IMG/VR virus record: IMGVR_UViG_3300010151_000150
Location: 1-24,937 of that record
Direction: 5' to 3' (one strand)
DNA from: a virus
Length of the DNA: 24,937 nt
The notes beneath the pieces are model-generated. The model saw nothing but the letters and a program-made list of their open reading frames with translations, did not search any database and had not been told where the DNA came from. Every line of letters starts with the position of its first letter. Position 1 is the stretch's first letter. Made by a program: the position numbers and the translations under genes. This document shows positions 1 through 18,130 of the stretch, one piece after another.

Positions 1-108
1 ATTAGATACATTACTTACATTAGATACATTACTTACATTAGATACATTACTTACATTAGATACATTACTTACATTAGATACATTACTTACATTAGATACA
101 TTACTTAC
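1..108. repeat. Perfect 18-bp tandem repeat, six copies, coding for (VSN)n
   Basis: Six identical tandem copies of attagatacattacttac fill positions 1-108. On the minus strand each copy reads GTA AGT AAT GTA TCT AAT, which is Val-Ser-Asn twice with two different serine codons. A degenerate copy follows at 109-126, giving Asn-Ser-Ile-Asn-Thr-Thr in reverse order. The repeat lies inside the truncated structural gene and starts exactly at the window edge, so the true copy number is unknown. Confidence 0.97.
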
Positions 109-1059
109 ATTAGATATATTAGTAGTATTATATACATCACCTGTTGCATCAATATTAGCATTATTAGCAGCAGTTGTTGTAGTAGGAACATTAGCGGGAT
201 TTACTACAGGACTTGGTGCAGGTGAAGGTTGACCACCAGCATCATCAGTATAATCGCCTAAACGTTTTTTAAACAATCCTGCTGTAATTTTTAATCTATC
301 TGCACCAGGTGCTGCATAATTATTAAATCCTTGAGAATTGTCATTTAAAGTAGGATCTACATCTGCATTAATTATTTCTTCTGTTACAAATAAACCAACT
401 CTATAATTAGATCTATTAGTATATTGATCTAAAAGAATTGTTTCTTTATTTACGTTTACAAATTGACCGTGGAAAAAATATACACCTTCATCAATGTTGA
501 AGGATGCTCCTGTTATTGATGCTCTACTAGGAAAAGTTGAGGCAAATGGTGTACCTGGTTCAATTGTAGAGTTTCCCAATAACCCAGAAAGAATAGTAAC
601 ATTAGAAGTTAATTCTTCTCCATCATCAAACTCTTTATTAGTATTATTTTTAGTATTTGAACCCAAATAATTTACATAGAGAGTAAGAGTTCCCCTTTCA
701 GATTCTTCTGGTCTCAAAACTCTATCAACAATTGCCGTTACACCTGAATTTGATCCTCTAATTCTTGCACCAACCAATTGATCAACATATGCAGATACAG
801 GAACCCCTTGATAATTATTATTAAGCTGGACACCATAATATAATTGGTTATAACCAATATTTCCTGGAATTACTTTAGCACCTTCTTTAAAGAAATGCTT
901 ACCAAATTTTTCAATTTGATTCTGAAGTATAGATTGAAGAGATGTTAATTCTCTAGCTTGTACCGGATATCCTGGTTTAAAAAGGACTTTTGCAAAATCA
1001 TTGTCTGCCTGGAAGTCATCAAAATATGGTGATACGTTAAGATTCGTTTGTAGTGGCAT
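1..1059 (-). CDS. DUF4815-type virion structural protein, C-terminus cut by window edge
   Basis: The reading frame is open from an ATG at 1059 to the first base of the window, so 353 N-terminal residues are visible and the stop lies outside. The start MPLQTNLNVSPYFDDF followed by a KVLFKPGYPVQARELTSLQ segment and QNQIEKFGKHFF matches, from memory, the DUF4815 structural proteins that T4-like cyanophages carry after gene 8. A later NAAPGADRLKITA-like stretch (seen here as NNYAAPGADRLKIT) fits the same family. After about residue 270 the protein becomes a Pro/Thr/Asn/Ala-rich linker and then a (Val-Ser-Asn)n repeat that runs off the window. The start is 6 nt below the gp8 stop, so it is last in the visible late operon. 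It is probably a baseplate or short-fibre component, since it occupies the place of T4 genes 9-10. The exact role is inference. Confidence 0.8.
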   Translation of the reverse strand, partial: MPLQTNLNVSPYFDDFQADNDFAKVLFKPGYPVQARELTSLQSILQNQIEKFGKHFFKEGAKVIPGNIGYNQLYYGVQLNNNYQGVPVSAYVDQLVGARIRGSNSGVTAIVDRVLRPEESERGTLTLYVNYLGSNTKNNTNKEFDDGEELTSNVTILSGLLGNSTIEPGTPFASTFPSRASITGASFNIDEGVYFFHGQFVNVNKETILLDQYTNRSNYRVGLFVTEEIINADVDPTLNDNSQGFNNYAAPGADRLKITAGLFKKRLGDYTDDAGGQPSPAPSPVVNPANVPTTTTAANNANIDATGDVYNTTNISNVSNVSNVSNVSNVSNVSNVSNVSNVSNVSNVSNVSN

Positions 1060-1065
1060 AGTCCG

Positions 1066-2619
1066 TTAGAATTGCAAAATGACTTTAATATCTTCTTTTT
1101 GATTTACAGACCTAACAATAGAAGGTCTATTATCAACATATATAATGTCTCCTGAATATCTTTTAACTTCAGGACCAGAAATACCTTGATCAAATTCTTG
1201 TCCAAGGTAATATGTTCTATTATTTATTGAGGTAGAGACACCAGAAAAAGAGGTATTTATTGCCAAATTAGAACCTGTAGAAGGTACAATCGTCAAACTA
1301 CCCCCAGTAGTAGGACTACTAGTAAATAAATTCTGATTAAATCCCCAAGTAGGAGTAGTTTGTGCTGTACCAACAGTGTTAAAACCAGCCATGGTCCTAT
1401 CTTGCCAATACTTTAAAACTCCAGTAACAGAATCATAATTTATAACTCTACCAACTGCAGTTTCTCCAGTACCGATAGTTTGTTCAAAATATGCATCAGG
1501 AGTAAATGATGCAGTACTATATCCAGTTCCAGTTAACCTAAGAGCATTACAAGCACTTGCTTTATCAATAGTTAAAAGTGCAGCTCCAGTTGATTGTGGA
1601 CTATCAACAACACCAACTCTAGCAATATGGTTACCTGTTATAAAATCAGGATTAGTGTTATCATTTTCAATTCGAGAATATAAAAGCACATTCATAGCAC
1701 CCAATTCCCTATAGATATCAAATCCGTGACCGCCTTGAGGAGATACAATAACATCAAAACCTGGTCGTGCTGTTGTTCCTGTAGGAACTCCGCCAGCAAT
1801 CAAATCAACACTACCATAAGTATAACCTTCCCCTTGATTAGAAACAACTACTGATTCAACTTGTTGATCAGCATCGACAACTACTGTACATTCAGCATCA
1901 AAACCATCCCCCCTAATAGGAACTCTTGTATAAGTTCTATTTGCAGTTCCAACACCCACACCTCTATTGGTAATAGTTATAATTTTAATAGATCCATCTA
2001 CAGCATTTTGCCGTATTGGAGCATGACTAGCATTAGTGCCCCATTCTATCGGAACTGGAATAAAATCACTTGATTCGAATTTTATAATATCACTTGGTTT
2101 AATGGTATAAAGATATTTCCATACATACCCATCACCACTAGCACCAGCAGTTCTTGGTTCTAAATCTGTAAAAAGAGGTTGATCTAATGAAGGTCTACCA
2201 TTAAGATTGTCAGGATCCGTACCGTTTTGAAGACATTCATACACTCTATAATCTTCATTAAGAACAAAAAATGTAGACGAATATAAATTAGTTGCACCCG
2301 AAACTTTTGCCGGATTAGATCTACTAACATCAGAACGATACATGTCATAAGTTGTACCAGAAGACCATATCCTCTTTGGAACAACTTGCCTAACATCATC
2401 AGCATTGATTTTCTTCAATGCAATCATTGTATCCCAATACTCATTTTCGTCACTAAAATTGTCTTTAGGAGCTGGAGGTGTAGTATCCCAATCAGATGCT
2501 ATATCCGTAGGATTAGGTAACCCCACAAAAGAATAAAACGATCTGGTTGAAGTACTTACTCCAGACATAAAGTTTTTCGCATTTAATATTCTGATTTGAT
2601 CAGTTATAATGGCGGCCAT
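1066..2619 (-). CDS. 8: Baseplate wedge subunit, T4 gp8 homologue
   Basis: This 517-aa protein is a homologue of T4 gp8, a dimeric baseplate wedge subunit that binds gp7, gp10 and gp6. Three landmarks match gp8 as I remember it: an N-terminal FYSFVG segment followed by VVPKRIWSSG (T4: VIPRRDW), a central GDGYVWKYLYTIKPSD (T4: GDGYVWEYLFEIPPD), and a C-terminal GDIIYVDNRPSIV ending in KVILQF (T4: GEMIYMENRPPII, ending ILFTF). T4 gp8 is about 334 aa, so roughly 180 extra residues lie mainly between the central and C-terminal landmarks. The extra part includes a VVSNQGEGYTYGSVDL segment like the repeats in the neighbouring giant protein. The gene follows the gp7 homologue after a 32-nt gap that holds a late-promoter-like AATAAATA. 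No Shine-Dalgarno sequence is evident before the ATG. Confidence 0.93.
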   Translation of the reverse strand: MAAIITDQIRILNAKNFMSGVSTSTRSFYSFVGLPNPTDIASDWDTTPPAPKDNFSDENEYWDTMIALKKINADDVRQVVPKRIWSSGTTYDMYRSDVSRSNPAKVSGATNLYSSTFFVLNEDYRVYECLQNGTDPDNLNGRPSLDQPLFTDLEPRTAGASGDGYVWKYLYTIKPSDIIKFESSDFIPVPIEWGTNASHAPIRQNAVDGSIKIITITNRGVGVGTANRTYTRVPIRGDGFDAECTVVVDADQQVESVVVSNQGEGYTYGSVDLIAGGVPTGTTARPGFDVIVSPQGGHGFDIYRELGAMNVLLYSRIENDNTNPDFITGNHIARVGVVDSPQSTGAALLTIDKASACNALRLTGTGYSTASFTPDAYFEQTIGTGETAVGRVINYDSVTGVLKYWQDRTMAGFNTVGTAQTTPTWGFNQNLFTSSPTTGGSLTIVPSTGSNLAINTSFSGVSTSINNRTYYLGQEFDQGISGPEVKRYSGDIIYVDNRPSIVRSVNQKEDIKVILQF

Positions 2620-2638
2620 TTTGACAGATATTTTTCTT

Positions 2639-2646
2639 TATTTATT
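2639..2646 (-). promoter_or_regulatory. Putative T4-type late promoter before gene 8
   Basis: The minus strand reads AATAAATA here, one base from the T4 late consensus TATAAATA and compatible with the looser NATAAATA form described for cyanophages. It lies in the only real gap of the structural operon, 19 nt before the gene 8 ATG. The 8-mer is common by chance in AT-rich DNA, so position is the main support. Confidence 0.5.
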
Positions 2647-2651
2647 AAAGA

Positions 2652-5600
2652 TTAAGTAGTATAATTTTTATATTTCAAAGGCTTGTACCTTTGTACTATC
2701 GCAGAGGTATGAATACCAGTAGCTGAGATAGCCGTAGTTACTCCAATTGAACTACCAACAACCTCTGTTATGCTACTTGCAGCAACTCCTACACCATCTA
2801 AAGTATAAGATTGGAAGGAATTAATACCTGCTCTGGAAGGTAATGTAATTACTCCCCAACTATAATTACCATAGAAATCAGATGTTCTTATTCCTACAGT
2901 TCCATACCAACCTGCTGGAGTTGATCCAACACCAACAGTAACTCTTCTTACATATGTAGATATACCCAGAACAGAGGTTGAAATACTAACTGCTGTGGTA
3001 ACCTTATAAACGTTATCAGCAAAGTGAGTTCCTATTCCATAGGTACTAGATCCATCCAAGGATGTTATTGATGTTGTTGCAATACCCACATTAGAATTTT
3101 CAATTATGAAATAATCATTAACGCTCAAAGAACTCAAACTTAATCCAGTTCCAACATAAGTTGGTTGTCTTAAATAAGAATCATATGGTATATGAAGATC
3201 AAACATAATTTGATTACTAGTGGTAGTTCCAAATCCAACAATTACACCACTATCTCCCACATAGCTACTTACTATATCTACTTCATCAACAGATGCTGGT
3301 GGAGAAATAAGAACTTGTGGAGTTTCCTCTGGACTATACCCATAACCACCGGATGTGACTGCAATACCGGATATTGTTCCATCAGCAGCAATTGTTACCG
3401 CTCCGTAAGCAGTCCATGTAGTACCAATTCCAACTCCTCCTTGTCCTGATCCCGTAGCACCAATAGAAACTGTTGCAGTAGTATATCCAACACCACCATC
3501 AGTAACAGTAATAGCAGATATTGTTCCACCAGTAGAAACTGTTGCAGTAGCAGCGGCAGCAATCTTGCTTTCCTGTCCAACAAAACTAATCTTATCTTGG
3601 AAAGAAAGACTAATTCCGCTTTCATTATTAGGATCAAAGAATGGTCTTATATTATCAACATATATTGCAGTTGAACCTACACCAACTGTCTTAATTAGAT
3701 AAGCAGCTGGATAAATGTTGGGTTCATATAGTTCTCTATCTTTCGCTACTTCTTTATCGTTAATAATTCTATCTTCGGTTTGACGAACCCAAATAACAGG
3801 TCTCATCAAATTCTCATCTGTAGTATTACCTGGTCCAAAATAAGGAACCGTAGTAACAGTATCTGTAGAATCTACTCTTGCAACCTCTCTTTCATCTTCA
3901 TCCATCCATGCTTGTTGATTAAGACCTGCTTTCCAACTAATTGTTGAATCAGCCTCAATCATTATATCATCTCCTGGTTTAACAGTCTCCAGAATCTCTA
4001 CAGAATTAACATCTACCCCAGCAGTCCCCTTATAGAACATAATCTTACAACTATCACCAAATTTAGGTGCTTCTGTGAATGTTAATAAACTACCTCCCTC
4101 AAATTTATATGCTTTACCTGGGATTTGTAGAATATCATTAACAAAGATAAGAAGACAATCTTGAACATTAATTTTAGAACCTTTAGCAGATAGAATAGAA
4201 AGAACTGCTCCATTTTTCTTAATCTGGAAAGTAAGTGTCTCTCCATCAAATAGATCTTCTATTTTATCAATCATATCTAATTCACCAAAGCTCCATCCAG
4301 TAAATTCATCACTAAATATCTCATCAACAGTAAGTTGAAACTCTTTGGAACCAAAATCAGCAGTAGTTGGTATTCCCGTCAATCCACCAACTGGAACTGT
4401 TAAAATTTCACTATTACCATAACCAAATCCAAGATTTGTAAGGGCAAAATCAACTACACTAGATCCTTGTCCAACAACTACATCAATAGTAGCGGTAGTT
4501 CCTACTCCAGTGACAGAATCAGAACTATAAATCAATGGCATACCCGAATATGATAACGGAGCATCAATTGTTATAAGAGGTGGATTGGATGATGTATGAA
4601 TACCTAATGTACCAATACCACTCACTGAACTAATACCAGTTATATAACCATTATTAATAATTGCAGTTGCAATACCAGTAAAGTAAGTTGCATCCTTACC
4701 TTGAGAACTAATTCCAACATTTACAGTTTGAATTCCTGCCCTATAACCAGATCCACTGTTCCCAATACTAATCGATGAAATTGTTCCAAGACCAGAAACT
4801 ATTGCAGTTCCTCCAGCAGAAACTAGTGGTTGATATCCAAATCCTTCAGTAGAACCCACAGAAATTATAATACCACCAACTGGGAAACTTGATATGCCTA
4901 CGTCATCTTTAAGTATTTTTGCATTTCCAACAAAAGAAAGTGTAGTGATTCCTGCAGTATCATCAAAGGTATAGTTATAAGTTTCTCCTCTACCTTGAAC
5001 AACACTGTTAATTAATATGAAAGCACCTGTAGATATTCCTACAAAATTTGCTCCATCTACTTTAAGATCAAAATTCTTATTAAGTCCATTAAATTCATTA
5101 GAAATACTATCAATAATATAATTAGAAGTATATGGTTCTAATGTACCATCAGTAATTCCAGAACGCATAAACATTCTTCCTTGGAAACTGTATCCTGTAG
5201 ATATACCAACCCAATCTCTATCATCGGGTTTATTAGTATCTGTACTTAATGGGGTATTTCCAACAGGAGCATCTACGAAGTTCAAAGTGTTCTCAACAAT
5301 ATTATAAGCACCAATAACTTTAACTACCTTAGTATCTGTAGCAAATCCAGCAATCTTACTACCCATCCATCCTCTATCTACTCGAATAGCATTAGTAGCA
5401 CCAACACCAATCGCAGTAATTTGCATTATCTCACCAGTATCAGCAGCACCTACTCTAACTAAATCATCAGCAAAGAAAGAAGTAATTCCAGAGAAGTAAA
5501 GAAGATCATCTGTTGTAAATGTAATATTAGATAGATGAGTAGTAGTTGCTGTAGCTACAACAGGTGATTGAATAACATTATCAAGACCAATAACAACCTT

Positions 5601-8600
5601 TGCATTAGCATCCTTCGCAGTAAATCTATGAGATGATCCAATACCAACACTAGTAAAGTTTAAAGATTCTGGTATAACTTTAAGAGCATTTTCAGCACTA
5701 GATGCCAATCTTATAGTATCATCATCAACTTTAATAACATATACACTGGAAGGTGTTTTATCGGTTGTACCAATACCAACACCACCAGATTCTCCAAAAG
5801 AAGTAGAACCAATTCCAATTGCTTGTGTAGCACCAATTCCAGAATGTGTATAATTAACATTCTGCCCAGTAACAAAGAAGTGATTAGGAAGGGTTATTGT
5901 ACTTGACCCTACACTTACAACCGTAGAAGCATTACCAACAAAATCCCTATTGAAAATTTCTTCCTTATTATGAGTTAACGGGAAGTCTCTCTTAATGTCA
6001 TTTAAAGTTCCTCTATACGTCGCATAATCTGTTTCAATAGTACCATTATTAAAATCAATAGTATCTTTATCATCGTCTTGAATCTTCAATGCATTCATAT
6101 AAGTATTAACTTGACAATCAATATTTGCATTCGGTGTAAATGTTGCCTCACAATAAGAAACACCACCTTGATTCATCTGCAATCTACTTCCAATAGTACC
6201 TAATCCTGCAAGAGTTTCTATATTAGCCCATTCAGTATCATAAGCAGTTCCAATTCCACTTTCTTCACTATAATCTTCTAAAACAAAGAACTCAGATAAT
6301 TGATGTTCAGTATTTGTGGTATCAGTTACTTGAACTATAAAATAAGCACCATCATAACCATCAACCTCAGGGTTAAATTGAGTTGGGAAACTTCCAATAC
6401 CAACAGGAATAGGAGAACCAGCAGCAGCAATAGTAGTAGTCCTTGATTCAAGAAGAGCATGTTTCATACTAATGGTTCCAATACCAGTAGTAGTATTTCC
6501 AATTGCTACTTGCATAGTATTAACTATACAAGTGGTTCCAATTCCAGCATTTGGATGGAAATCAATTTTGACAGTTCCACTCTCAATGTAAGCAGAGTAA
6601 GTTCCAAATCCTTGAGCAAGATTTGCTGAACTAGTAACCATCTCACCATATTCTAATAAATCTACATTAGTTCCATCATGAAGAATATTAAGTTCCTCAA
6701 ATTCCCAATCCTCACTATTAATTGTTGATCCATCTCCACCAGCATCTGGTGTTATACTAACCAAAACTTTAGCAGAACGATATGTTGTAGCAATACCTAC
6801 AACTGTAGTAGTAGTTGCAGCGGCAACTTTTGTACTTGTTGAATCAATATAAACACATCCCAAACTTGTAGTACCTATACCCAGATAATTGTCATCTAAA
6901 TTATAAGCTAAAGTAGTAACATAGTAATCATTCTTCTTATATCTGGTAGGATAGAAAAGAACTTGACCTTCTGTACCAGAAACTTGGAAATCAAATGAAC
7001 CAAGATCATAAACATTATCAATTTTGGCATATTGGTTAATATATCCAAAAGTACCATCATGAATAAGATCAACTATCATTAATTGTCTTTGACCCGTATA
7101 TCTTTGGTCTTTAATTAATGTGAAATATTTCTTTGCTCTATGCTCAGTTAAAGTAAATGTATCAATTATACCGTAAATAGTTGGTCGTGGATTACTATTA
7201 AATGTTCCACTGAAATCATCTATAGTAAGAACTCTATTGGTTTGAGAGTCTTCATAATCACTAAGAACTCTATTTGCAAATATAACTTCATCCGATAAAA
7301 TAGAACCACCTTCACCTTGTGCTCCACCACCAACTTTTCTATAATTTTCTCTGACCAGATCAAAATCAGATACCGCATTCATATTTCCAATACCAATTAT
7401 ATCATTAACTGCATCAACTGATGTTGTTTCAGTAGATAATCCAACACTCATCATACTCTCACCAGTAGTAGATTCTAACTGATAGTCAGAAAACTTTTTA
7501 AATCCTGAAGTATGATTTAATGTACCTACAGGATCCTTCCAAGTATCATAATCAACCTTGGATTTAAGTGAATATGAGAAGTTCTGATAGTAAAAACTAT
7601 CTTCTATTTTTTGTAGAGGGTAATTTAATACTCCAGAATCAGTTTCCCATCCATGAAATACCTTAGCCCAAGCACCGAAATTAAGATCTGCAGCGTAAGT
7701 TTCTACTCTATCGGCACGTCCATGAACATGCGATGCTTGTCCAATAAGAACATCTCCTTTCTTTAATTCGTCAATAGTAGATACTTTTAATAAACCAACC
7801 TTTTTATCCCATCTATCGACAATACCACTTTTCCCATTTAGAGTCCCATCATCTACTTTTACTATTTCTCCTTCTAAATAATCAGTTTGCTCAACCGCAA
7901 TATTAAATACTGGCCAATTCTTCTCTGCTATAACTCTTCCGGCAGAACTAGGGGCATGGAAAACACCAGGAGTCTCTCCATCACTTAAATGATCTTTAAG
8001 ACTATAAGCAACCGTTCCAATTCCTCCAATGTTTTCATCAACTGCGATTAAAGGGAAAGTGTTATAATTATAACTTGCAGAATTATATCCAGTTCCCGTA
8101 GATCCAACACCAACACTAACATTCTCAACTAAAACTCTATCACCCAATTGGAATGGGAAAGATCCTGCAGTGGTAAATCCTACTGCTAAGGTGAGAGTTA
8201 CATCTTTAGTGACAGTATTAAATCCAACAGTAGCAATTCCTACACCATTAGTATTTTCTGTGGGGATAATATACGGAGTAACATTATGAATTCCAAAAGT
8301 ATTTCTAAGAACTTCTACTTTTTGCGTTTTAAGATCATATTTAGCAGCAAATTCATCCTTCAATTGATCAGTTTTACCATCAAAAAGACGTAAATTTGGT
8401 GGCGATGAATATCCCCTTCCAACAGAGGTTATTCCAATAGATTGAACACGAGCAAATTCTTTTATCGATACAATTTGCGGTAATGCAACACTTGGTTCTA
8501 AAGTTGGGTCTGATGGGAAATTATATCCAATATTCTCAACTTCTGTTTTAGTAATTTTACCAATATTATTACTCGTTGCTTCTGCTATAGCAAACTGACC

Positions 8601-11600
8601 CAATTCCGAAGTAATAGACTTAACTCCAGGGATTGAATAATAATTATTACCACCATCAGTTACATTAAATTCTGCTATAGGTCCGAAAGCTGTTTCTGAA
8701 TCAGTTTTATATGTTAAATCAGAAGTAGTACCTGCATAGGATACTTTCTCTGGAGTCGATGCTAAAGTATAAGTGTAAGTATTAGTTGCCCCAACACCAA
8801 TAATATGTTTTCCATTATAAACACTAAGATATGAATTAATTTCATGTCCATTAAGAACATCTCCATCAATATCAATTTCTGATTTTACTTCTGGTAGATC
8901 ACTCTCATATACAGGAAGAAGTCTATAATATAAAGTATCTGGTACATACTTATCAATAGTTAATTCAAGTTTAGCATCAGTATCTATTCCAATTCTCCCT
9001 GATTTTTTAACTTGGAATTCTTTAGTACTTGGATTTTTATTCCATTCCTTTACACAATTATTATCTGCATATAACTGGAAATCAAATGCTGGATACGATA
9101 TTGACCCTACAGTATATGCCAATGAAGAATCTGAAAGATCAAAAGTAATAACAGAATCCTTATATACTGTTATTGGTGGATTTATTGGATTTAAAGTTCC
9201 ACTAGAAGCACTATTTCCAATACTAACAACAATAGGCTTATGTCTCGTAGCATTGTAATAACTGCTTGATAATTTAAACTGATTATCATCAATTGGAACT
9301 ACGTAATAAATTCCCTGATCTTCCAATCCATATGTAGAATGATCAGATCTATCTGCGATATGGACAACTTTTTCAGCTTTAGTAAACCCGTTATCATTTA
9401 TTGTAAAAGTATTTGTTGATGTAGTTACGCCAGCAGTAGTAAATCCAACTGCATCAAGAGTAAGTTTCCTATTATAATCATTATATTTTACTGTAACAAT
9501 ACCAGCATTAGATGGATTAACCCGAACAATAACAGTATCTTTTGGTTGTAATCCATGAGTACCTGCAGTACCTACTGTTACAAGATTTCTACTTAACTTC
9601 CCAGTAATAGGAGTAAAATTGTTATTAAAACTATGATATGTTCCAGTTCCTATTCCGGTAAAGAAAAGTATAGAAGAACTATTACGATGTGTTGATGCTA
9701 TACCACACCAACTTCCAGCTTCATTTATAAAGACCTTACATGTTGCAATTCCCAACTCATCTTTCGATATTCTAGCAGCATAAAGAGTTTCGCCATTAGT
9801 TAATGTTGTACCAGTACCTGCCCAATTTTGGAACGCAGGACTTCCTCCATTTGATCTAGTATCACCAAAGACACTAAGTGCAGCACCCACAACTCCCGTT
9901 GCTGCAGCAGACACCTGAGACTTGCAACATAAAAGTTTTACATTAGATCCTGCAGCTGCTTGACTGGTCTTGGTTGTTGGTAATACTGGTGGTGTAAATG
10001 CTGCAGTATAAATTGCTTCTCCAACAGCATATCTCAGGTTAGAAATTTTTCCTCTAAAATACCTATCTTGAGAAGCAGAAGTTTTATGAGCACCAATATG
10101 AACTACAGTACCAGTACCTGTTCTTGTGCCACTTAAAGTACCAGTTGCTTCGACTACACCATTAATAAAGATCTTTCCAGCAGTATTGTATAAAGATGCA
10201 GCCACATGAGTCCACTGCCCTACAGGACACATCCCAGCTGCAGTTGTTATGTCAAGTAAATCGGTACCAGCATCGTTTTCTACTAGAAGTCTTATATCTC
10301 CATGATTAGTGGAATTAAGGGTCAATCCTATATTAGAAGCACTACCTACAGAGCTATTAAAGATTTGTCCTATTATAGCATTTTGAGGATATATCCAGGC
10401 TTCTACAGTGAAATTATTACTATTACCAAGTTCATAAGCACTATCAGTACTGGTCATATAATCACCAGTACCATCAAACAATACAGATCCCTGTACATCA
10501 ACAGTAGTACCAGCAGCAACAATACCACTTCCATTACCTGGAGAGTATGTAAGCACATCATTATTTTGATACATGTGGTTTTCAATCCACATGGTTCTAG
10601 TGGGAATAAAGACTCCTGTTCTTCCTACCCCAGCAATACCCAATGAACTAAGACCCACATTCTCAAAATAAACTGTAGATCCAATACCAGTAGCAACACT
10701 AGTTCCTACTCCAACATGATGAACTGGGTTGAAATAACGCTGTTCATTTAATTTATTTTCAGTAGTTGTTCTAAATCCAGCATTTATAATAATTTTTCTA
10801 GGATCATCATATAAAGTAGTTCCTATACTATGAGAAACACCCACAGTATTATCCCATGCCCTTATTACTCTAATTCTTGACAATTGTTTGTCTACATTTA
10901 AAACTTTAACCCTCTCAGTACCAATCCCTAGAATATCATTCTCCCTAATATTAGGATATTCAAGAACTCCTCCAACATTAAGAAAAGTAACTATCCCAGT
11001 AACAGAAGTAGACCCTAATCCTGTAGGATTACTTGTACCAACTCCAACCAATTTTAATAAATTAGTCGTAATTCCTACTTTATAAGATCCTTCAATATCA
11101 GAAGAAGTAGTAGATAATCCAGAAACTGAAATTATATCATTAGCTAAGAAATTATGTGGATTTTCACACCACCCAATCCAATCACCATTTACTTTTTCAG
11201 TAGGATAGAATTCAACCCCACTAATAGTACTAGTCGCCACACTTACATTAGTAACAACATCACCCTCAAGTAATGAAATGCTAGCTTTTGCCCCAGAATT
11301 GGGATCATGCTCCATTTGCAATATTCCATTAGTATTAGTAAGACGCGAACCTCTTCTAACTGCTGCAGTGTCACTATTATCAAATATTACCTCATCACCC
11401 ATCTTATACATTTTTCCAGCACTACTAATCCCAACATCCTGAACTGTTCCACGAGTAGTAGAAAGAATATCTACTTTTTGTTTCAACTTATTGGGTATAT
11501 AAGCATATTTGTAAGTGATATCGTCTTCTATTAAATTATAGGGTTCAGTATTCCTAAACCAATTCTCTGCAGAAAGATTAAAATCATCCTGATTTGAATG

Positions 11601-14600
11601 AAGATCGAAATTAAATTTATTAGGAACTGAATGATACGCATCACCAACCAAATATGGGAACTTTGGTTCTCGATATTCTAAGAAAGGTCCAGCAGACGCC
11701 GTTACTGCATCAACAGTAGCAAAATATGCATAAGTTCCATTTGGAAATTCTGGAGTAATGCAGAATCTTCCATTATTTTTATCTAGAACTGTCTCATCAT
11801 TTACTTCAGTATAAGTATAATCTTCAATGAAAAATCCTTCAGGGAAAAATACTTCAGATGGTCTATTGGATTTCAAATCAAGTTTGTACCCAGATTTCAT
11901 CTGTTTAATCACACCACCTCTTCTAGTAGCATATCCATATGGACCATAAATCGGATTTCCATCATATGCCCACCCAATTATTGGAGAATGTCCTGTAGCA
12001 GAAATTTCTGATCCATTTTGTTTGCTTAAATCATTCTGCCCATATAAAGTGTTGCCATCCTGATCAGTTGAATAAACCGACTCTCTAAGTATTCTGGGAG
12101 CATATAAATGGGTATATTGAAGTCCAATTCGACCATCTACTATAAATCCATCATCTAACGTGAATTTTTCCCAATGTTTCCCTACTAAATTTACACGCCA
12201 TTTCTGAAGCTGTGCTTTAAATTCTGCTCCTCCTCCAGGAAAATCAAGAAAAGATATTACATTTTGTTGCGTATATCCTTCACCACCTTGAAGTACTTTA
12301 ATAGATTCTATTCTACCATCTTCTGCTAATATTGGAGTAGCAACACAACCGAAACCATACCCTGCTCGTTCTTCTACTATTACATCAGGTGGGGAATTAT
12401 ATCCATGACCAGGATTTTCAACTATAATCTCAGAAACTCTTCCATCAATAACAACTGGTTTTAATTGAGCTTCTTCTCCAAATGATAAATTAATAGATGG
12501 TTGTCTCACATAATCCATCACTGTAGAATTACCATATCCTACACCATTATCAGAAAGATGTACGCCTGTTACTCTTCCTCTAAATATTGGTTGAATTTCA
12601 CATGCAAAATTTACTCCATCAGCAGGTTGATCTCCAGTTGCTGTAGTACCATAACCAACTATAGATGATATACCAATTTCACCTAATACATTAACTTCAA
12701 TGGGTGGATAATTAAAGAATTGAGTTCCTATACCAGTTGATTCTATATTAATAAATTGACTACTCTGATAATAAATGTCATAATCAATCGTCGCTATACC
12801 TACATTAGATAATTTAAAATTATCATCATCAATCTTTGTTAAAATGTAATCGGTAGCACTAGAAATTCCCGACATTTCTGTCGCACCATCACCAAGACTA
12901 TACCTAACGGTTTCTCCAGAATTATATCCATGATCTTCAATAGTAATTACATTATTAGATGTATTAACTCCAACTGGATATAAAGATCTTTGTCTATAAG
13001 TATATCCACTTCCTTCATCAATTACATTAACAGAACTCAATACCATTCTTTCATGAACAGGTTTAAGAATTTGATTACCAACACCATAATCAGTTATTAC
13101 GACAGTATTAATTCCTAAAATAGAATCTCCTTGTGTGGGATATAACTGAACTGTAAAATTATCTACAACACCGATAAAATATTTGTTATACGTATTTAAT
13201 CCAACAATACCATCTTGACCTTCACTATAATAGATTACTGGTTCTTCAGGTCTAAGTTTATGATAGGTTGAAAATCCAATTGTCGAAACTGTAGCACCAA
13301 TTCCTATTAAATTTACATTCTGGGCACTGAAAGATGCTTCATATTGAATATACCCCATATTTGGCTGAGCAACTGCTCCTGTACCATTACCACCTGTAAT
13401 TGTAACCGATGGCATTCTTGTATAATCAGATCCAGGACTTTTAACTCTAATTTCCTGTAAACTACCCTGTACATCTACAAATCCAGTAGCTCCAATTCCA
13501 GTAACATCATCAATATACAAAAGAGGTGGATCAATAATATCATAATCATTACCTTCTGCTAATATTTCAATATTTTCAATTTTTCCAGAATTAACTAACT
13601 GTTTTGATTTATAATTTTGAACTTCAACACCATTTATTAATATTCCAGTAGGACCTGGTACAGTTTCAAATATCTCAGAATCCTGTATTGGTGTTTGAAG
13701 AGATCTTACTATTTTTTGCGATTCTAAAGTTTTAAGTTTGAATGTATAAGGCTCTATTTTATTATTTTCGACTGTTATCTCATTATCAGTTACAACAAAA
13801 ACTCCATTAGCAATATCCGCTATACTTTTTGCTAATCTTATTGTATATGCGTCTAATCTTTTTATAAAATATAAACCTTCTTCAAATAAGAAAGAATAAG
13901 TGACAATCCTAGTTTGAATTTTGCCAAAAGAATCATAATAAGTTTCAGCTTCTTTTTGTGGGGTATACCAAACAGCATCTCCTGTATAAAATCCGTGATC
14001 TAGAGTTGAAGTTATTGTAAATGCACTTGTTGCAGGGAATGTTCCATTAAGAGCAACAGATCTACTCGAAACGTTAAGTGGTTGAGCATTATATGAAGGA
14101 ATAGATGGAGATGCAATTAGATAATCACTACCTTGTTTATATAAATTCTGTACATTAGTTAAAAATCGTGATGAATCTGGGAAAGTGTTGGATATAGACC
14201 TTAAAAGAACTCTTTTAACAGTATACGTATCAATAATCGCAAGATTTCCTTGACCTTTTATAATAAAGGATGTTGCAGATTTAATCTCACTAATTGTAGA
14301 CATTGGCCTTTCAAGGGTGTCTCTACCTATTAAAATTACATTATCACCCACTCTAAAAGAATGTTCTGTTTTTAAATAAACTAGGTAAGTTTGATCTGAA
14401 ATATCAATTAATTCAACACTCTTAACATTATACTGCGTTGCAATATTATAAAACCAATTTCTTCCTTTAAAACTCTTTTCTTTAATACCTAAAGTTTTAA
14501 TTTTAGCAACATCACTATGTGAATAATAGCGATTAGTATTTGCATAATTAAGACTCTCTAATACCGAACCTACCCGTACTCTGATAATACTACCATCACC

Positions 14601-15800
14601 GGTATTTGATTGAGCATAACAATACGTATTAATCCCAACATCTTCAGCATCTTCAATTATTCCAATTACATTAGAACATCCAAAGAACTGATTTAAATTC
14701 TTAGAAGTATAAGAAACAATACCAAGTTTAGTATCGTTATACCTTACAGACAATTCACCAGTATTTGGAAACCCTACAGTTGAATCAACATCAAATATAG
14801 TAGTTCCTGCAGATACTTGTCCAATCATCCGCGTTTTAGGATGAGTAATAAATGTACCGTAAGTAGCACCTTCTACTCTAGAATCTCTATTATATCCAGC
14901 ATCTAAACTAAGTTTATAAAAAGTTTTTGCCAGTCCAACATTTATTTGCTCTACATTTGTAATTGGAGCATATGCCTTTTCAATAAATGAAGGATCGCCA
15001 TATGGATCTTGAAATAGAGTCGAATTCTCCAACTCCATTGGATCACCTTCTACACCTTCTACAACAAAATCATTAGTAATAATATAATGGGCATTGGATG
15101 GTGTAAAAAGAAAATCTCTTGGCTTTATAACACTTACTTCTTCATTATATAATGCTTTAAATAAGATTTGAAAAGAAAGATCAGTTCCTTTACTTCTATA
15201 AAAATCTTTTGATTGTTTAATAAAAACATTCTTATTCAAATCTTTATGTAATTTTCTATTCTCAAAACCAGGTAAAAGTTGATGCTTTGTTTTTAATAAG
15301 AAATCTTTAAGGAAAATACAACTTAAATTGGTTATTGTAGCCCCTTTTTCATGATCAGCAGATATAGTAGAATCAAAAACTAACTGATCTGGACTATCTG
15401 CAGACTTATATGTTGTAATACCACTAAATCCTCTTACGCAACCAGTAAAACCTGAAGTAGTTAATCCAGTATATGTAACTATCTCATCATCAATTTTTAA
15501 TAATCCATAAGTTTCAGGAAATCCTGATGTGCCAGATGGATAATTGGATAAATCAACAGGAATAGTTGTATCAGAAAAAATAATATCTGACCCTAATCCA
15601 ACATGATCAGTTAAATTGGTTAAATTATCAACTTTTACGTATTTGTCAATATTTTGTATTAAATCAGCAGGAGCACCTTGAAATTCTTGAGAGATGTAAT
15701 AACTCTTAAGAAATTCAGAAACTAATGGAAATTCTGTTTGAACATATGTTGGAAGTTGATTCTCAACAACGTTTTGAAATTGGACCCTTTTTTCTGCCAT
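2652..15800 (-). CDS. 7: Giant baseplate wedge protein, gp7 homologue with YHYH and LamG domains
   Basis: The 4382-aa product lies between genes 6 and 8, exactly where T4 places gene 7, whose product starts wedge assembly by binding gp10 and gp8. Residues about 190-225 (KDFYRSKG then LFKALYNEEV) match a T4 gp7 segment I remember as YDFYSTKG then LFKVLYNEEV. In T4 this is in the C-terminal third; here it is near the N-terminus. The rest is beta-rich. At least 12 copies of a GxGY motif occur (for example VLQGGEGYTQQNVISF and VTDGGVGYTTATVSIG), and [IV]G[IV]G[ST] words recur throughout. Residues about 1205-1395 carry a YHYH-type domain (GWAYDGNPIYGPYGY). Residues about 1765-1945 carry a LamG/ConA-like fold (FTVEAWIYP, GQWTHVAAS, RYFRGKISNLRY). 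No frameshift is seen. The start is 1 nt after the gene 6 stop, with an AAGAG Shine-Dalgarno. Some later domains may serve host adhesion. Confidence 0.9.
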   Translation of the reverse strand: MAEKRVQFQNVVENQLPTYVQTEFPLVSEFLKSYYISQEFQGAPADLIQNIDKYVKVDNLTNLTDHVGLGSDIIFSDTTIPVDLSNYPSGTSGFPETYGLLKIDDEIVTYTGLTTSGFTGCVRGFSGITTYKSADSPDQLVFDSTISADHEKGATITNLSCIFLKDFLLKTKHQLLPGFENRKLHKDLNKNVFIKQSKDFYRSKGTDLSFQILFKALYNEEVSVIKPRDFLFTPSNAHYIITNDFVVEGVEGDPMELENSTLFQDPYGDPSFIEKAYAPITNVEQINVGLAKTFYKLSLDAGYNRDSRVEGATYGTFITHPKTRMIGQVSAGTTIFDVDSTVGFPNTGELSVRYNDTKLGIVSYTSKNLNQFFGCSNVIGIIEDAEDVGINTYCYAQSNTGDGSIIRVRVGSVLESLNYANTNRYYSHSDVAKIKTLGIKEKSFKGRNWFYNIATQYNVKSVELIDISDQTYLVYLKTEHSFRVGDNVILIGRDTLERPMSTISEIKSATSFIIKGQGNLAIIDTYTVKRVLLRSISNTFPDSSRFLTNVQNLYKQGSDYLIASPSIPSYNAQPLNVSSRSVALNGTFPATSAFTITSTLDHGFYTGDAVWYTPQKEAETYYDSFGKIQTRIVTYSFLFEEGLYFIKRLDAYTIRLAKSIADIANGVFVVTDNEITVENNKIEPYTFKLKTLESQKIVRSLQTPIQDSEIFETVPGPTGILINGVEVQNYKSKQLVNSGKIENIEILAEGNDYDIIDPPLLYIDDVTGIGATGFVDVQGSLQEIRVKSPGSDYTRMPSVTITGGNGTGAVAQPNMGYIQYEASFSAQNVNLIGIGATVSTIGFSTYHKLRPEEPVIYYSEGQDGIVGLNTYNKYFIGVVDNFTVQLYPTQGDSILGINTVVITDYGVGNQILKPVHERMVLSSVNVIDEGSGYTYRQRSLYPVGVNTSNNVITIEDHGYNSGETVRYSLGDGATEMSGISSATDYILTKIDDDNFKLSNVGIATIDYDIYYQSSQFINIESTGIGTQFFNYPPIEVNVLGEIGISSIVGYGTTATGDQPADGVNFACEIQPIFRGRVTGVHLSDNGVGYGNSTVMDYVRQPSINLSFGEEAQLKPVVIDGRVSEIIVENPGHGYNSPPDVIVEERAGYGFGCVATPILAEDGRIESIKVLQGGEGYTQQNVISFLDFPGGGAEFKAQLQKWRVNLVGKHWEKFTLDDGFIVDGRIGLQYTHLYAPRILRESVYSTDQDGNTLYGQNDLSKQNGSEISATGHSPIIGWAYDGNPIYGPYGYATRRGGVIKQMKSGYKLDLKSNRPSEVFFPEGFFIEDYTYTEVNDETVLDKNNGRFCITPEFPNGTYAYFATVDAVTASAGPFLEYREPKFPYLVGDAYHSVPNKFNFDLHSNQDDFNLSAENWFRNTEPYNLIEDDITYKYAYIPNKLKQKVDILSTTRGTVQDVGISSAGKMYKMGDEVIFDNSDTAAVRRGSRLTNTNGILQMEHDPNSGAKASISLLEGDVVTNVSVATSTISGVEFYPTEKVNGDWIGWCENPHNFLANDIISVSGLSTTSSDIEGSYKVGITTNLLKLVGVGTSNPTGLGSTSVTGIVTFLNVGGVLEYPNIRENDILGIGTERVKVLNVDKQLSRIRVIRAWDNTVGVSHSIGTTLYDDPRKIIINAGFRTTTENKLNEQRYFNPVHHVGVGTSVATGIGSTVYFENVGLSSLGIAGVGRTGVFIPTRTMWIENHMYQNNDVLTYSPGNGSGIVAAGTTVDVQGSVLFDGTGDYMTSTDSAYELGNSNNFTVEAWIYPQNAIIGQIFNSSVGSASNIGLTLNSTNHGDIRLLVENDAGTDLLDITTAAGMCPVGQWTHVAASLYNTAGKIFINGVVEATGTLSGTRTGTGTVVHIGAHKTSASQDRYFRGKISNLRYAVGEAIYTAAFTPPVLPTTKTSQAAAGSNVKLLCCKSQVSAAATGVVGAALSVFGDTRSNGGSPAFQNWAGTGTTLTNGETLYAARISKDELGIATCKVFINEAGSWCGIASTHRNSSSILFFTGIGTGTYHSFNNNFTPITGKLSRNLVTVGTAGTHGLQPKDTVIVRVNPSNAGIVTVKYNDYNRKLTLDAVGFTTAGVTTSTNTFTINDNGFTKAEKVVHIADRSDHSTYGLEDQGIYYVVPIDDNQFKLSSSYYNATRHKPIVVSIGNSASSGTLNPINPPITVYKDSVITFDLSDSSLAYTVGSISYPAFDFQLYADNNCVKEWNKNPSTKEFQVKKSGRIGIDTDAKLELTIDKYVPDTLYYRLLPVYESDLPEVKSEIDIDGDVLNGHEINSYLSVYNGKHIIGVGATNTYTYTLASTPEKVSYAGTTSDLTYKTDSETAFGPIAEFNVTDGGNNYYSIPGVKSITSELGQFAIAEATSNNIGKITKTEVENIGYNFPSDPTLEPSVALPQIVSIKEFARVQSIGITSVGRGYSSPPNLRLFDGKTDQLKDEFAAKYDLKTQKVEVLRNTFGIHNVTPYIIPTENTNGVGIATVGFNTVTKDVTLTLAVGFTTAGSFPFQLGDRVLVENVSVGVGSTGTGYNSASYNYNTFPLIAVDENIGGIGTVAYSLKDHLSDGETPGVFHAPSSAGRVIAEKNWPVFNIAVEQTDYLEGEIVKVDDGTLNGKSGIVDRWDKKVGLLKVSTIDELKKGDVLIGQASHVHGRADRVETYAADLNFGAWAKVFHGWETDSGVLNYPLQKIEDSFYYQNFSYSLKSKVDYDTWKDPVGTLNHTSGFKKFSDYQLESTTGESMMSVGLSTETTSVDAVNDIIGIGNMNAVSDFDLVRENYRKVGGGAQGEGGSILSDEVIFANRVLSDYEDSQTNRVLTIDDFSGTFNSNPRPTIYGIIDTFTLTEHRAKKYFTLIKDQRYTGQRQLMIVDLIHDGTFGYINQYAKIDNVYDLGSFDFQVSGTEGQVLFYPTRYKKNDYYVTTLAYNLDDNYLGIGTTSLGCVYIDSTSTKVAAATTTTVVGIATTYRSAKVLVSITPDAGGDGSTINSEDWEFEELNILHDGTNVDLLEYGEMVTSSANLAQGFGTYSAYIESGTVKIDFHPNAGIGTTCIVNTMQVAIGNTTTGIGTISMKHALLESRTTTIAAAGSPIPVGIGSFPTQFNPEVDGYDGAYFIVQVTDTTNTEHQLSEFFVLEDYSEESGIGTAYDTEWANIETLAGLGTIGSRLQMNQGGVSYCEATFTPNANIDCQVNTYMNALKIQDDDKDTIDFNNGTIETDYATYRGTLNDIKRDFPLTHNKEEIFNRDFVGNASTVVSVGSSTITLPNHFFVTGQNVNYTHSGIGATQAIGIGSTSFGESGGVGIGTTDKTPSSVYVIKVDDDTIRLASSAENALKVIPESLNFTSVGIGSSHRFTAKDANAKVVIGLDNVIQSPVVATATTTHLSNITFTTDDLLYFSGITSFFADDLVRVGAADTGEIMQITAIGVGATNAIRVDRGWMGSKIAGFATDTKVVKVIGAYNIVENTLNFVDAPVGNTPLSTDTNKPDDRDWVGISTGYSFQGRMFMRSGITDGTLEPYTSNYIIDSISNEFNGLNKNFDLKVDGANFVGISTGAFILINSVVQGRGETYNYTFDDTAGITTLSFVGNAKILKDDVGISSFPVGGIIISVGSTEGFGYQPLVSAGGTAIVSGLGTISSISIGNSGSGYRAGIQTVNVGISSQGKDATYFTGIATAIINNGYITGISSVSGIGTLGIHTSSNPPLITIDAPLSYSGMPLIYSSDSVTGVGTTATIDVVVGQGSSVVDFALTNLGFGYGNSEILTVPVGGLTGIPTTADFGSKEFQLTVDEIFSDEFTGWSFGELDMIDKIEDLFDGETLTFQIKKNGAVLSILSAKGSKINVQDCLLIFVNDILQIPGKAYKFEGGSLLTFTEAPKFGDSCKIMFYKGTAGVDVNSVEILETVKPGDDIMIEADSTISWKAGLNQQAWMDEDEREVARVDSTDTVTTVPYFGPGNTTDENLMRPVIWVRQTEDRIINDKEVAKDRELYEPNIYPAAYLIKTVGVGSTAIYVDNIRPFFDPNNESGISLSFQDKISFVGQESKIAAAATATVSTGGTISAITVTDGGVGYTTATVSIGATGSGQGGVGIGTTWTAYGAVTIAADGTISGIAVTSGGYGYSPEETPQVLISPPASVDEVDIVSSYVGDSGVIVGFGTTTSNQIMFDLHIPYDSYLRQPTYVGTGLSLSSLSVNDYFIIENSNVGIATTSITSLDGSSTYGIGTHFADNVYKVTTAVSISTSVLGISTYVRRVTVGVGSTPAGWYGTVGIRTSDFYGNYSWGVITLPSRAGINSFQSYTLDGVGVAASSITEVVGSSIGVTTAISATGIHTSAIVQRYKPLKYKNYTT

Positions 15801-15801
15801 G

Positions 15802-17727
15802 TTATGCTCTTACTAATGCTCCATTTTGATAACTTGAGCTTACAGTGTAACCTCCTCCAGCCGGATCCATTCCAGATGAAATTTCGTCAACAACTGTTTC
15901 AAAAGTACTGCTACCAATATCTAGTTGCAAATACAAATCCTGTAATCCAATTACATCATTTGATTTAGGGCATATTGACAATTCTATTATAGATTGTCCC
16001 TCCCTAATTTTAGCAGCTCGAATAACAATAGGATTTATTGTTATGACTCCACTTAAGTAATTGATTTTACCAACATTTCTCTTAACAATTTGAGGACTTA
16101 ATGAATTTACATTGGGAAGTGTAAATAGGAAGAGAGATCCGGTTGCCCCAGAAGAATTAGGAATATCAGATATGTAAACTGGGTTAGGAACACCATCAAC
16201 AACAAATTGACTGGACTTAACGTTAAATCCACCCATATTCTTAATATGAAAAGCATTACCAAATCCAATTGAATATTCAGTAATTTTATTCAATATCACT
16301 CGTAAATCCCTTCTCATTTGAACTGTAGTGATGTTGGATGTAACACCTTCTTGACTTTGGTCAACAAGATTTAAAAACTTACTGTATTTAAATCTAGCAC
16401 CATATCTATTTAACTCAGTTGATTCAGCATACTTAGTAGCAGAATTTTGAACTAAAGATGAAACTTCTGTTCCAGTTTGAGCAAGATTTGAATTATAGTA
16501 AATCTTAGAAAATACTTCAATATAAAGATATTTAAGATCTAAGATTTCGGGAACAATACCAGCAACAGAATATTTCTTCAATTTCATTTTAATGTTTTCT
16601 TTAATAATATTAGGAAGAAAATCACCTGTTCTTGGTTTAATACTAATAAAAACCTTTCCATATTGAGGTGGAACCAACTCTTCACCACCAAAAACCGAAA
16701 TTGACTCTGTTTCTGGGTAAATTCTTGCAGGAATTAAAGATTCATAGTCTTGGGCGGATACTGCTCTATTTTGTGAAGCATATATTCTTGGAGCAAACTT
16801 TCTAATCGACTCCACAGATTCAATATTCTCACCACCAGTCGAAAATTCATTAGTGGTCATCAAAGAGATGCCAGATGTTACATTATAAAGCTCTCCATTT
16901 CTATCATAGGTAAGAGTTCCCGCAAAAGTCATCTGACCAACCCCATTACCAGTATCACCACTAGAAACGATGTAATCAGCAGTAATAAAATTACCTTCTT
17001 CTAATGCTTTTCCAAAAATACCGTCTCCAAAGAACAATTGATATCTTTCATCTTCAACTTCTTGCAAATAATAGGCTTTTGAGTTTTTATCAATGTCAAA
17101 AAGACTAGTTTGAGTGCTATATTTGGTTTTAGCAGTCGCCATTTCATTACTTTTGACATTTACTGCAATTAAATCAGTATCAATGCCAATATTTGGTAAA
17201 ATAAACTTTTGATTTGGGTTTCTTGAGTTATATGTAAAGTTAGTATTTAAAAGAGTCCCCTCATAAACTAAAATATTGTCAAATTGAGCAACATTATTAT
17301 AAACTGGAGACGTAATATCTTCTAAAATTGAAAAAACATAAGATTGATTACCAAAAGATCCCGCAGTAGTTGCTACAGTACCCTTTTTAAGGGTCAATGT
17401 TGATGGGGAAGGGATAATTTTTGTAGTGTCAACGAAAAAACTGATTGCAGAACGTGCTGATTTTCTAGAACGAGGTAAATATCCAATATTTCTTGCTAAT
17501 GAAACTATATTTTCTCTTAAAGTTGCACTATCAATGAATACTTCATTAGTTACCATGTTGGCATTGTATGAAGTAAGGTAGGTATTATACGCCAATACGT
17601 CTAAAACAGTTGAAAGGTTAGACCCTTCAAAGTCATAATCAGTAAAATTTGCATTTGTTTGCAAATAATCTGTAAGAGTTGTTTTGATCTGGGCAAAATC
17701 CAGATTTGAAAAATTAACTAATGGCAT
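15802..17727 (-). CDS. 6: Baseplate wedge subunit, T4 gp6 homologue
   Basis: The 641-aa product is close to the 660 aa of T4 gp6, the protein whose dimers form the inner ring joining the six baseplate wedges. The N-terminus has the diagnostic DYDFEGSNLSTVLDVLAYNTYL segment in pieces: YDFEGSNLSTVLDVLAYNT resembles T4 YDFEGSRLNVLCDLLAYNT. It is followed by NEVFIDSATLRENIVSLARN-type sequence and GYLPRSRKSA (T4: GYLPTSKSA). A baseplate J-like core is expected in the middle (VSAQDYESLIPARIYP). The gene starts 1 nt after the gp25 stop and ends 1 nt before the giant gp7 start, so translation of all three is probably coupled. An AGGT precedes the ATG by 3 nt. The gene order 25-6-7-8 supports the assignment. 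Confidence 0.94.
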   Translation of the reverse strand: MPLVNFSNLDFAQIKTTLTDYLQTNANFTDYDFEGSNLSTVLDVLAYNTYLTSYNANMVTNEVFIDSATLRENIVSLARNIGYLPRSRKSARSAISFFVDTTKIIPSPSTLTLKKGTVATTAGSFGNQSYVFSILEDITSPVYNNVAQFDNILVYEGTLLNTNFTYNSRNPNQKFILPNIGIDTDLIAVNVKSNEMATAKTKYSTQTSLFDIDKNSKAYYLQEVEDERYQLFFGDGIFGKALEEGNFITADYIVSSGDTGNGVGQMTFAGTLTYDRNGELYNVTSGISLMTTNEFSTGGENIESVESIRKFAPRIYASQNRAVSAQDYESLIPARIYPETESISVFGGEELVPPQYGKVFISIKPRTGDFLPNIIKENIKMKLKKYSVAGIVPEILDLKYLYIEVFSKIYYNSNLAQTGTEVSSLVQNSATKYAESTELNRYGARFKYSKFLNLVDQSQEGVTSNITTVQMRRDLRVILNKITEYSIGFGNAFHIKNMGGFNVKSSQFVVDGVPNPVYISDIPNSSGATGSLFLFTLPNVNSLSPQIVKRNVGKINYLSGVITINPIVIRAAKIREGQSIIELSICPKSNDVIGLQDLYLQLDIGSSTFETVVDEISSGMDPAGGGYTVSSSYQNGALVRA

Positions 17728-17728
17728 T

Positions 17729-18130
17729 TTACCTATTTGATTCTAAAACGAATTCTAATTGTTGTGGTGGAACATCTGCTCCTATAATTTCATATACGAT
17801 CATTATATCAAAAGTATTGTTGTCATAATCAGGAAATGCCTTTACTTCAATTAATTCAACTCTTGGTTCGTACTTTGATATTGAATGTGTAATTTCATCA
17901 ACAATAATTGATGCCGTTACGTCATTTATATTCTCAAAAAGGATTGCAGTAATTCTAGAACCAAAGTTTTCATCAAAAAACTTTTCTCCAGGAAGGGTAA
18001 ATACGATATTTTTGACTGATCTAGCAATTGCGTTCGCATTTTTAAGCGCAATTAAATCTCTAGACAAAGGATTTGCCTGAAAAGTCATACTAATATCTTT
18101 AAAACCTTTACTGATCCTTTCTACAGGCAT
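17729..18130 (-). CDS. 25: Baseplate wedge subunit with lysozyme-like name, T4 gp25 homologue
   Basis: This 133-aa protein matches T4 gp25 (132 aa), the wedge component that clamps gp6 and gp53 and is homologous to TssE of type VI secretion systems. Visible family features are the N-terminal region with NPLSRDLIALKNANAIARSV, a FTLPGEKFFDENFGSR segment (T4: RPFDPEFGCDLSDQLFEN), the phrase AILFEN, and the conserved KYEPRVEL segment (T4: NYEPRIDKL) near residue 90. Despite the old family name (GPW/gp25), it has no known enzyme activity. It is the first gene of the late operon, and the 49-nt gap upstream contains a late-promoter-like site. No Shine-Dalgarno sequence is seen before the ATG. Confidence 0.94.
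   Translation of the reverse strand: MPVERISKGFKDISMTFQANPLSRDLIALKNANAIARSVKNIVFTLPGEKFFDENFGSRITAILFENINDVTASIIVDEITHSISKYEPRVELIEVKAFPDYDNNTFDIMIVYEIIGADVPPQQLEFVLESNR

Follow-up and report, generated by a model that had tools for sequence, protein, structure and literature searches.

A predicted giant gp7 baseplate wedge protein with a discontinuous conserved core in a T4-like phage near marine cyanophages

Judged from profile and alignment comparisons, a 4382-aa frame in a virus DNA stretch of 24,937 nucleotides (IMG/VR record IMGVR_UViG_3300010151_000150, positions 1 to 24,937; hereafter the window) encodes a homologue of the baseplate wedge protein gp7 and comes from a T4-like phage close to the marine cyanophages. 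The conserved core of this putative wedge protein is discontinuous, and most of the added sequence lies inside the core. We favour, with a probability of roughly 0.85, a split-core gp7 in which segments A, B and C on one side and segment E on the other have been separated by additions and a laminin-G domain has been gained, while the chain would still build the wedge unit with gp6 and make excursions to the periphery. We found no description of a split gp7 core in the open-access literature text.

The frame comprises 4382 codons without interruption, from an ATG at 15800 to a stop at 2652-2654 on the minus strand, as read from the open reading frame list and the translation. In the minus-strand gene order established by Pfam and PHROG assignments, gp25 and gp6 precede it, and gp8 and then a DUF4815/VrlC-like protein, interrupted by the contig end, follow it (Table 1). 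The initial annotation had described a single unbroken 13-kb frame between genes 6 and 8, and this holds exactly at 2652-15800 in both coordinates and continuity, the minus strand having been left unmentioned; likewise KDFYRSKG and LFKALYNEEV, placed there at about residues 195-220, are found at residues 198-222 of the translation. At the contig end (window positions 1-122) an 18-bp unit, ATTAGATACATTACTTAC, is present in 6.7 copies with 99% matches and encodes the (NVS)n run of the DUF4815/VrlC-like protein. A 257-aa protein located between gp25 and small upstream genes (18863-19633, minus strand) had no Pfam match.

Table 1. Features of the window discussed in the text, with the evidence for each.
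Feature	Residues of gp7	Window positions	Strand	Basis
gp7 frame	1-4382	2652-15800	minus	4382 aa, ~473 kDa; PHROG 2885 E=0, gene order
gp25		17729-18130	minus	Pfam PF04965 E 5.9e-13
gp6, wedge partner of gp7		15802-17727	minus	Pfam Gp6-like and PHROG 219
gp8		1066-2619	minus	Pfam PF09215 E 1.9e-16, PHROG 438
Core segment A, helical (T4 gp7 helical domain 643-689)	9-60	15621-15776	minus	A-module HMM
RGF copy 1, beta domain between A and B	~72-145	15366-15587	minus	AF2 strands 66-144
Core segment B (KDFYRSKG..LFKALYNEEV)	187-250	15051-15242	minus	HMM E 4.9e-16 to 1.9e-18; hhalign to T4 gp7
Core segment C	251-300	14901-15050	minus	hhalign; aligns with T4 up to 814, inside T4 domain V
Great insertion inside the core	301-2730	7611-14900	minus	B-to-E gap 2488 aa
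RGF copy 2	331-380	14661-14810	minus	HMM E 5.5e-19
HG module copy 1	592-662	13815-14027	minus	Iterated HMM
Three-GY (GxGY) module cluster	1075-1191	12228-12578	minus	Iterated HMM
YHYH domain	1266-1365	11706-12005	minus	Pfam PF14240 E 8.4e-24
Laminin-G/ConA-like lectin-type domain	1763-1992	9825-10514	minus	Pfam PF13385 E 6.1e-19
Core segment E, includes YYQNFSYSLKSKVDYDTWKDPVGTLNHTSGFKKFSD	2731-2780	7461-7610	minus	Compact-gp7 HMM E 6.5e-13
C-terminal extension beyond the core	2781-4382	2655-7460	minus	1602 aa after E

A profile built from the N-termini of eight cyanophage proteins (A1) matched only T4-type gp7 when run against the whole PDB (E 7.7e-5), and hhalign placed window residues 189-300 on T4 gp7 723-814 with a probability of 92.5% (E 4.8e-7); the gp7 homology proposed in the initial annotation is thus backed by profile matches within residues 1-350, and the T4 motifs that it had quoted, YDFYSTKG and LFKVLYNEEV, are indeed those found at ~732-756 of T4 gp7 (AAD42518, 1032 aa), in its C-terminal third. 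Moreover, a motif-B profile made from compact gp7s of other phages only gave an E-value of 1.9e-18 for the window protein at 188-243 and 3.6e-10 for T4 at 731-758, the best domain E-value among shuffled and reversed controls being ~3. The baseplate wedge family PHROG 2885 (4179 columns) spans much of the protein, and a tblastn search with residues 1-350 retrieved 466 phage records, nearly all of them cyanophages and many annotated as baseplate wedge initiator. The gp7-type features present in the window protein are its gene place between gp6 and gp8 and segments A, B and E.

The Pfam family PF23786 scored the window protein at 11.8 bits against a cut-off of 27, a cut-off that most of its compact relatives exceed, and the low score is probably due to the splitting of the core; the listing for PF23786 does not include T4 gp7. 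Neither Gp7_6th nor fn3 was matched by Pfam in the window gp7, whose core begins at residue 9 and which has no counterpart of T4 residues 1-640 or of the C-terminal domain VI. These T4 parts are also unseen in the compact gp7s and therefore mark the T4 lineage only. With phmmer, the whole protein matched the PDB only in its laminin-G region. A megablast comparison of the gene's first 3.8 kb with phage sequences returned no match, which means that no phage in that collection is a close relative.

To map the core we used HMMs for A, B and E, all built from compact gp7s without the window protein or T4 and run on giant gp7s, T4 types and shuffles. The landmarks common to compact gp7s are the N-terminal helices of A, the motif B (DFYxSKG..LFxxLYxEEV; FYxSKGT..LFRxLF) and the motif E (QDSxYYQDFSYVI...HPAGF), and in these proteins A, B and E (YQxFSYxI..HPAG) lie within a few hundred residues. 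The A-module HMM matched the window protein with E 6.8e-9 and T4 644-690 with E 0.011; AlphaFold2 (AF2) modelled helices at residues 8-37 of this segment, at low confidence. A contiguous A-B HMM, also trained without T4, found T4 gp7 as one piece (644-760, E 8.1e-14) and the window gp7 as two separate pieces, 9-60 and 187-250. In the case of E, the HMM matched T4 gp7 at 866-890 with an E-value of ~1e-4 per genome, over a span of 25 residues only, and every other giant once, in mid-protein, the best shuffle giving 0.2. Over 15 phage genomes, T4, RB69 and a KVP40-like phage included, the E profile produced one match per genome, always inside the gp7 frame, and in the whole PDB its only match, a weak one, was again T4-type gp7 (866-890).

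Two external profiles bear on the same arrangement: PF23786, which matches compact gp7s, includes the N part as well as the E part, and compact gp7s map onto PHROG 2885 at columns 165-308 and then 2398-2467. In the window gp7, A is separated from B by ~125 added residues and B from E by ~2,490, and a further 1,602 lie beyond E. Since E falls in mid-protein at 2731-2780, most of the added sequence lies within the core; and as ~640 residues stand in front of the core in T4, these lengths point to accretion round one core, not relocation.

The added sequence is composed largely of repeated modules. RGF copy 1 is an insert missing from T4 and from those compact gp7s that lack the insert. The AF2 model of the copy 2 region (319-391) comes close in fold to beta domains known from phage tail tubes and from the tip of the lambda tail (Z 8.5-10). 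Iterated HMMs detected further HG copies at 840-892, 949-1000, 1734-1766, 2129-2183 and 3300-3371 (E 1e-7 to 1e-19), bringing the totals to at least six HG modules, at least eleven GY modules (eight beyond the cluster) and at least two RGF modules; GY modules were also detected in the window gp8 and in several virion PHROGs. The AF2 model of residues 1-600 had a mean pLDDT of 69.9 and a pTM of 0.36, and that of 1691-2830 a mean pLDDT of 61.8 and a pTM of 0.41. With pLDDT ~30 in the E region and 40-67 in the A and B helices, the core was modelled too poorly to read the packing of A-C against E, and T4 gp7 was not among the matches listed by Foldseek and VIA-align; those were beta domains of phage tails and folds of the LG/pentraxin type.

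The laminin-G domain (230 aa; 69.1 bits against a Pfam cut-off of 27.6) adjoins HG module copy 4 in one loop, and its AF2 model matches pentraxin/LG folds, superposing on the PTX3 pentraxin domain with Z 13.8 and an rmsd of 3.1 over 167 residues. Residues 1763-1992 form a precise insertion relative to S-SM2, Bellamy, S-B05 and P-TIM68. The domain was present in 13 of 13 IMG/VR contigs (L106-L118, of which L116-L118 end within it); where other contigs of the N-terminal search extend across the site, they have no laminin-G, and -2 to 9 residues separate the two flanks. In a tree of N-termini the carriers, together with four contigs not reaching the site, make up one clade with support 100/100; a count of label changes puts contigs not covering the site in a separate group, and the relevant unit is this 13-row clade (100/100). 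The nearest outside rows that cover the site (L036, L044) are without the domain. A single carrier clade with such neighbours argues for one gain, in an uncultured marine clade, of a domain that no other relative we examined carries. Other marine virus proteins, on contigs L119-L126, also have distant laminin-G domains (32-35% identity); these proteins did not match the gp7 probes, so that this type of domain seems to pass from one virus protein to another.

The size of the protein is not new, as the initial annotation had suspected: gp7s of cultured marine cyanophages have 3,048 to 7,312 aa (S-PM2 3048, Bellamy 4067, S-SM2 4156, P-TIM68 4307, P-SSM2 5195, Syn9 6076, and, as frames, S-CAM8 6167 and P-SSM4 7312). 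At the other extreme, searching with distant relatives uncovered compact gp7s directly after gp6 in Pseudoalteromonas phage XG4 (419 aa), Xanthomonas phage X1 (498), Stenotrophomonas phage YB07 (503), Desulfovibrio phage 7757 (586), BUCT-ZZ01 of Synechococcus elongatus (607), pelagiphage Mosig (874), Melnitz (896) and phiM9 (903), several of them annotated merely as hypothetical protein or unannotated; those of 419-607 aa look like the bare gp7 plan. The proteins of Mosig (L103:5479-8103) and of the Methylophilales phage Melnitz (L098:3060-5750), both annotated as hypothetical, are identified as gp7 by A, B and E, and the gp7 of the freshwater cyanophage S-CRM01 (1454 aa, L129:2701-7065) is intermediate between compact and giant.

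The distance between B and E follows this series, with 93-405 residues in compact gp7s (405 in phiM9), 108 in T4, 1077 in S-CRM01, 1575 in S-PM2, 2488 in the window and 2150-2802 in the other giants (2802 in P-SSM4), and the residues after E number 34-289 in compact gp7s, 142 in T4 and 1602 in the window. S-CAM8, Syn9 and P-SSM4 carry ~500 further residues between A and B, which in S-CAM8 (~6167 aa, L010:14183-32666) are GY-type repeats, the gap being of similar size in the other two.

The layout put forward in the initial annotation, an entire wedge core at the N-terminus followed by some 4,000 unrelated residues, is right in part. The first portion of the core (T4 644-814) is N-terminal here and C-terminal in T4, with A, B and C all inside residues 9-300, and the motif stands at about residue 200 of 4382 against 734 of 1032 in T4, hence not at the same relative place. 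The claim that the whole core sits at the start did not survive, however: E, a core part in compact and T4 gp7s, lies at 2731-2780 and nowhere else in the genomes tested, and we consider that layout quite improbable. A core that is not truly split would also result if E were a mobile adaptor, spread by domain shuffling and foreign to the gp7 core. The T4 match of only 25 residues and the occurrence of the intervening modules in several virion proteins lend this idea some substance, but E was found once per genome and in gp7 only across the 15 genomes, in PDB sequences only in T4-type gp7 and always after B, and PF23786 and the PHROG profile, built by others, hold both parts, which leaves it a small chance. 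The shifted position of the motif could in principle reflect relocation of the module by circular permutation or a domain swap; the A-B-C-E order is identical in T4, compact and giant gp7s, only the lengths before, between and after the segments vary, and this explanation, very improbable, was dropped.

Granted the split core, the insertion and the tail might have arisen when neighbouring baseplate or fibre genes (equivalents of gp9-gp12) fused into gene 7, instead of by a gradual accretion of small modules. GY modules common to gp8 and other virion PHROGs would fit a fusion, as would the separate extra genes that P-TIM68, S-B05 and S-CRM01 carry between gp7 and gp8. Yet stepwise insertion is favoured by the intermediate sizes (1454 and 3048 aa) and by the precise gain of a single domain, laminin-G, and no inserted part matched gp9-gp12 in Pfam or PHROG; we regard fusion as unlikely, while giving it some weight. 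Nearly negligible, in turn, is a misread frame or an assembly error: the window is only a 24.9 kb virus fragment, but cultured phages have homologues co-linear over the full length, and a second contig, L106, is 100% identical in the N-terminal, LamG and E stretches and has an open frame of 2901 aa. On this agreement the artefact reading was discarded.

T4 gp7 has been stated to be absent from cyano- and pelagimyophages and seemingly substituted by VrlC (PMC7029224). Pelagiphage Mosig, however, encodes its 874-aa protein with A, B and E after gp6 together with a VrlC of its own, and a giant gp7 accompanies VrlC in most of the cyanophages that we examined. The coexistence of both proteins means that, as far as sequence comparison can tell, gp7 is not replaced by VrlC in these phages; the published statement is contradicted and can be corrected to a compact gp7 in Mosig and a giant one in most cyanophages looked at.

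Under the split-core reading, A, B and C of the window gp7 would pair with two gp6 chains, on the model of T4 and TssF/TssG, to give the (gp6)2-gp7 wedge unit; (TssF)2-TssG has been described as resembling (gp6)2-gp7 (PMC6300606). The chain would then exit the wedge after C, pass through ~2,400 residues of beta modules, return so that E completes the wedge fold, and exit again as a 1,600-residue tail. At the rim of the baseplate such excursions may make up large lobes that point radially or downwards, and these lobes could take over jobs of T4 gp9-gp12 or of gp7 domains I-IV, that is fibre docking, and make the first contact with host surface glycans through the YHYH and laminin-G domains. Fibre docking and host contact by the added modules we infer from the kinds of domain present and from work published on other systems. 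In T4, gp7 is monomeric and the tail has six copies of it (PMC3004832); six copies at 473 kDa would sum to 2.8 MDa, T4 gp7 having 119 kDa per copy.

A protein whose normal role is to hold the baseplate together has thus probably been extended outwards as well, to make contact with the host. S-PM2d081 (3048 aa; L128:1-8677, corresponding to LN828717 19530-28676), recorded as hypothetical and identified here by profiles as the S-PM2 gp7, acquired a mutation while coexisting with the host, by day 39, and is listed among the mutated large proteins (PMC9910659), which is weakly suggestive of host contact by gp7. Going further, and tentatively, since we hold it at somewhat less than even odds, the cyanophage gp7 might be re-entrant, with the ~2,400-residue detour building a host-contacting layer, one gene replacing most of the T4 peripheral proteins, and lectins being exchanged in the loops; if so, swapping of domains such as laminin-G in gp7 loops would change host contact.

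The residue-level map separates a universal wedge from additions in the largest virion proteins of cyanophages, and makes cryo-EM maps and segment-wise structure predictions of them interpretable. It also offers laminin-G as a concrete candidate for a host-contact domain, its glycan binding being putative, and the window gp7 as an example of enlargement of a phage baseplate through insertion into a core protein.

Among more distant systems, the gp7-like part of Alg12 (AlgoCIS), TssG and P2 gpI are described as gp7-type wedge partners and as places at which fibres attach and variation occurs (PMC8894135, PMC6300606), and their likeness to the window gp7 rests on those papers; our A-B profile gave significant PDB matches to T4-type gp7 only, the rest being chance, and no Tail_P2_I was found in Pfam. 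T4 gp7 (1032 aa; PDB 5IV5/5HX2) shares with the window protein the place between genes 6 and 8 and the A-B-C-E order, but has ~640 residues before A and a B-to-E gap of 108, whereas the window gp7 is not extended in front, separates B from E by 2488 residues and continues for 1602 beyond E. The gp7s of XG4, 7757, BUCT-ZZ01 and Mosig (PF23786) possess all core segments directly after gp6, with B-to-E gaps of 93-359 aa in place of 2488. The closest likeness is with S-SM2 and Bellamy, whose gp7s show about 50% identity to the window protein across the full length, with the same gene place, the same A/B/E order at similar positions and repeated beta modules; these two, like S-B05 and P-TIM68, differ from it in being without the 230-aa laminin-G insertion.
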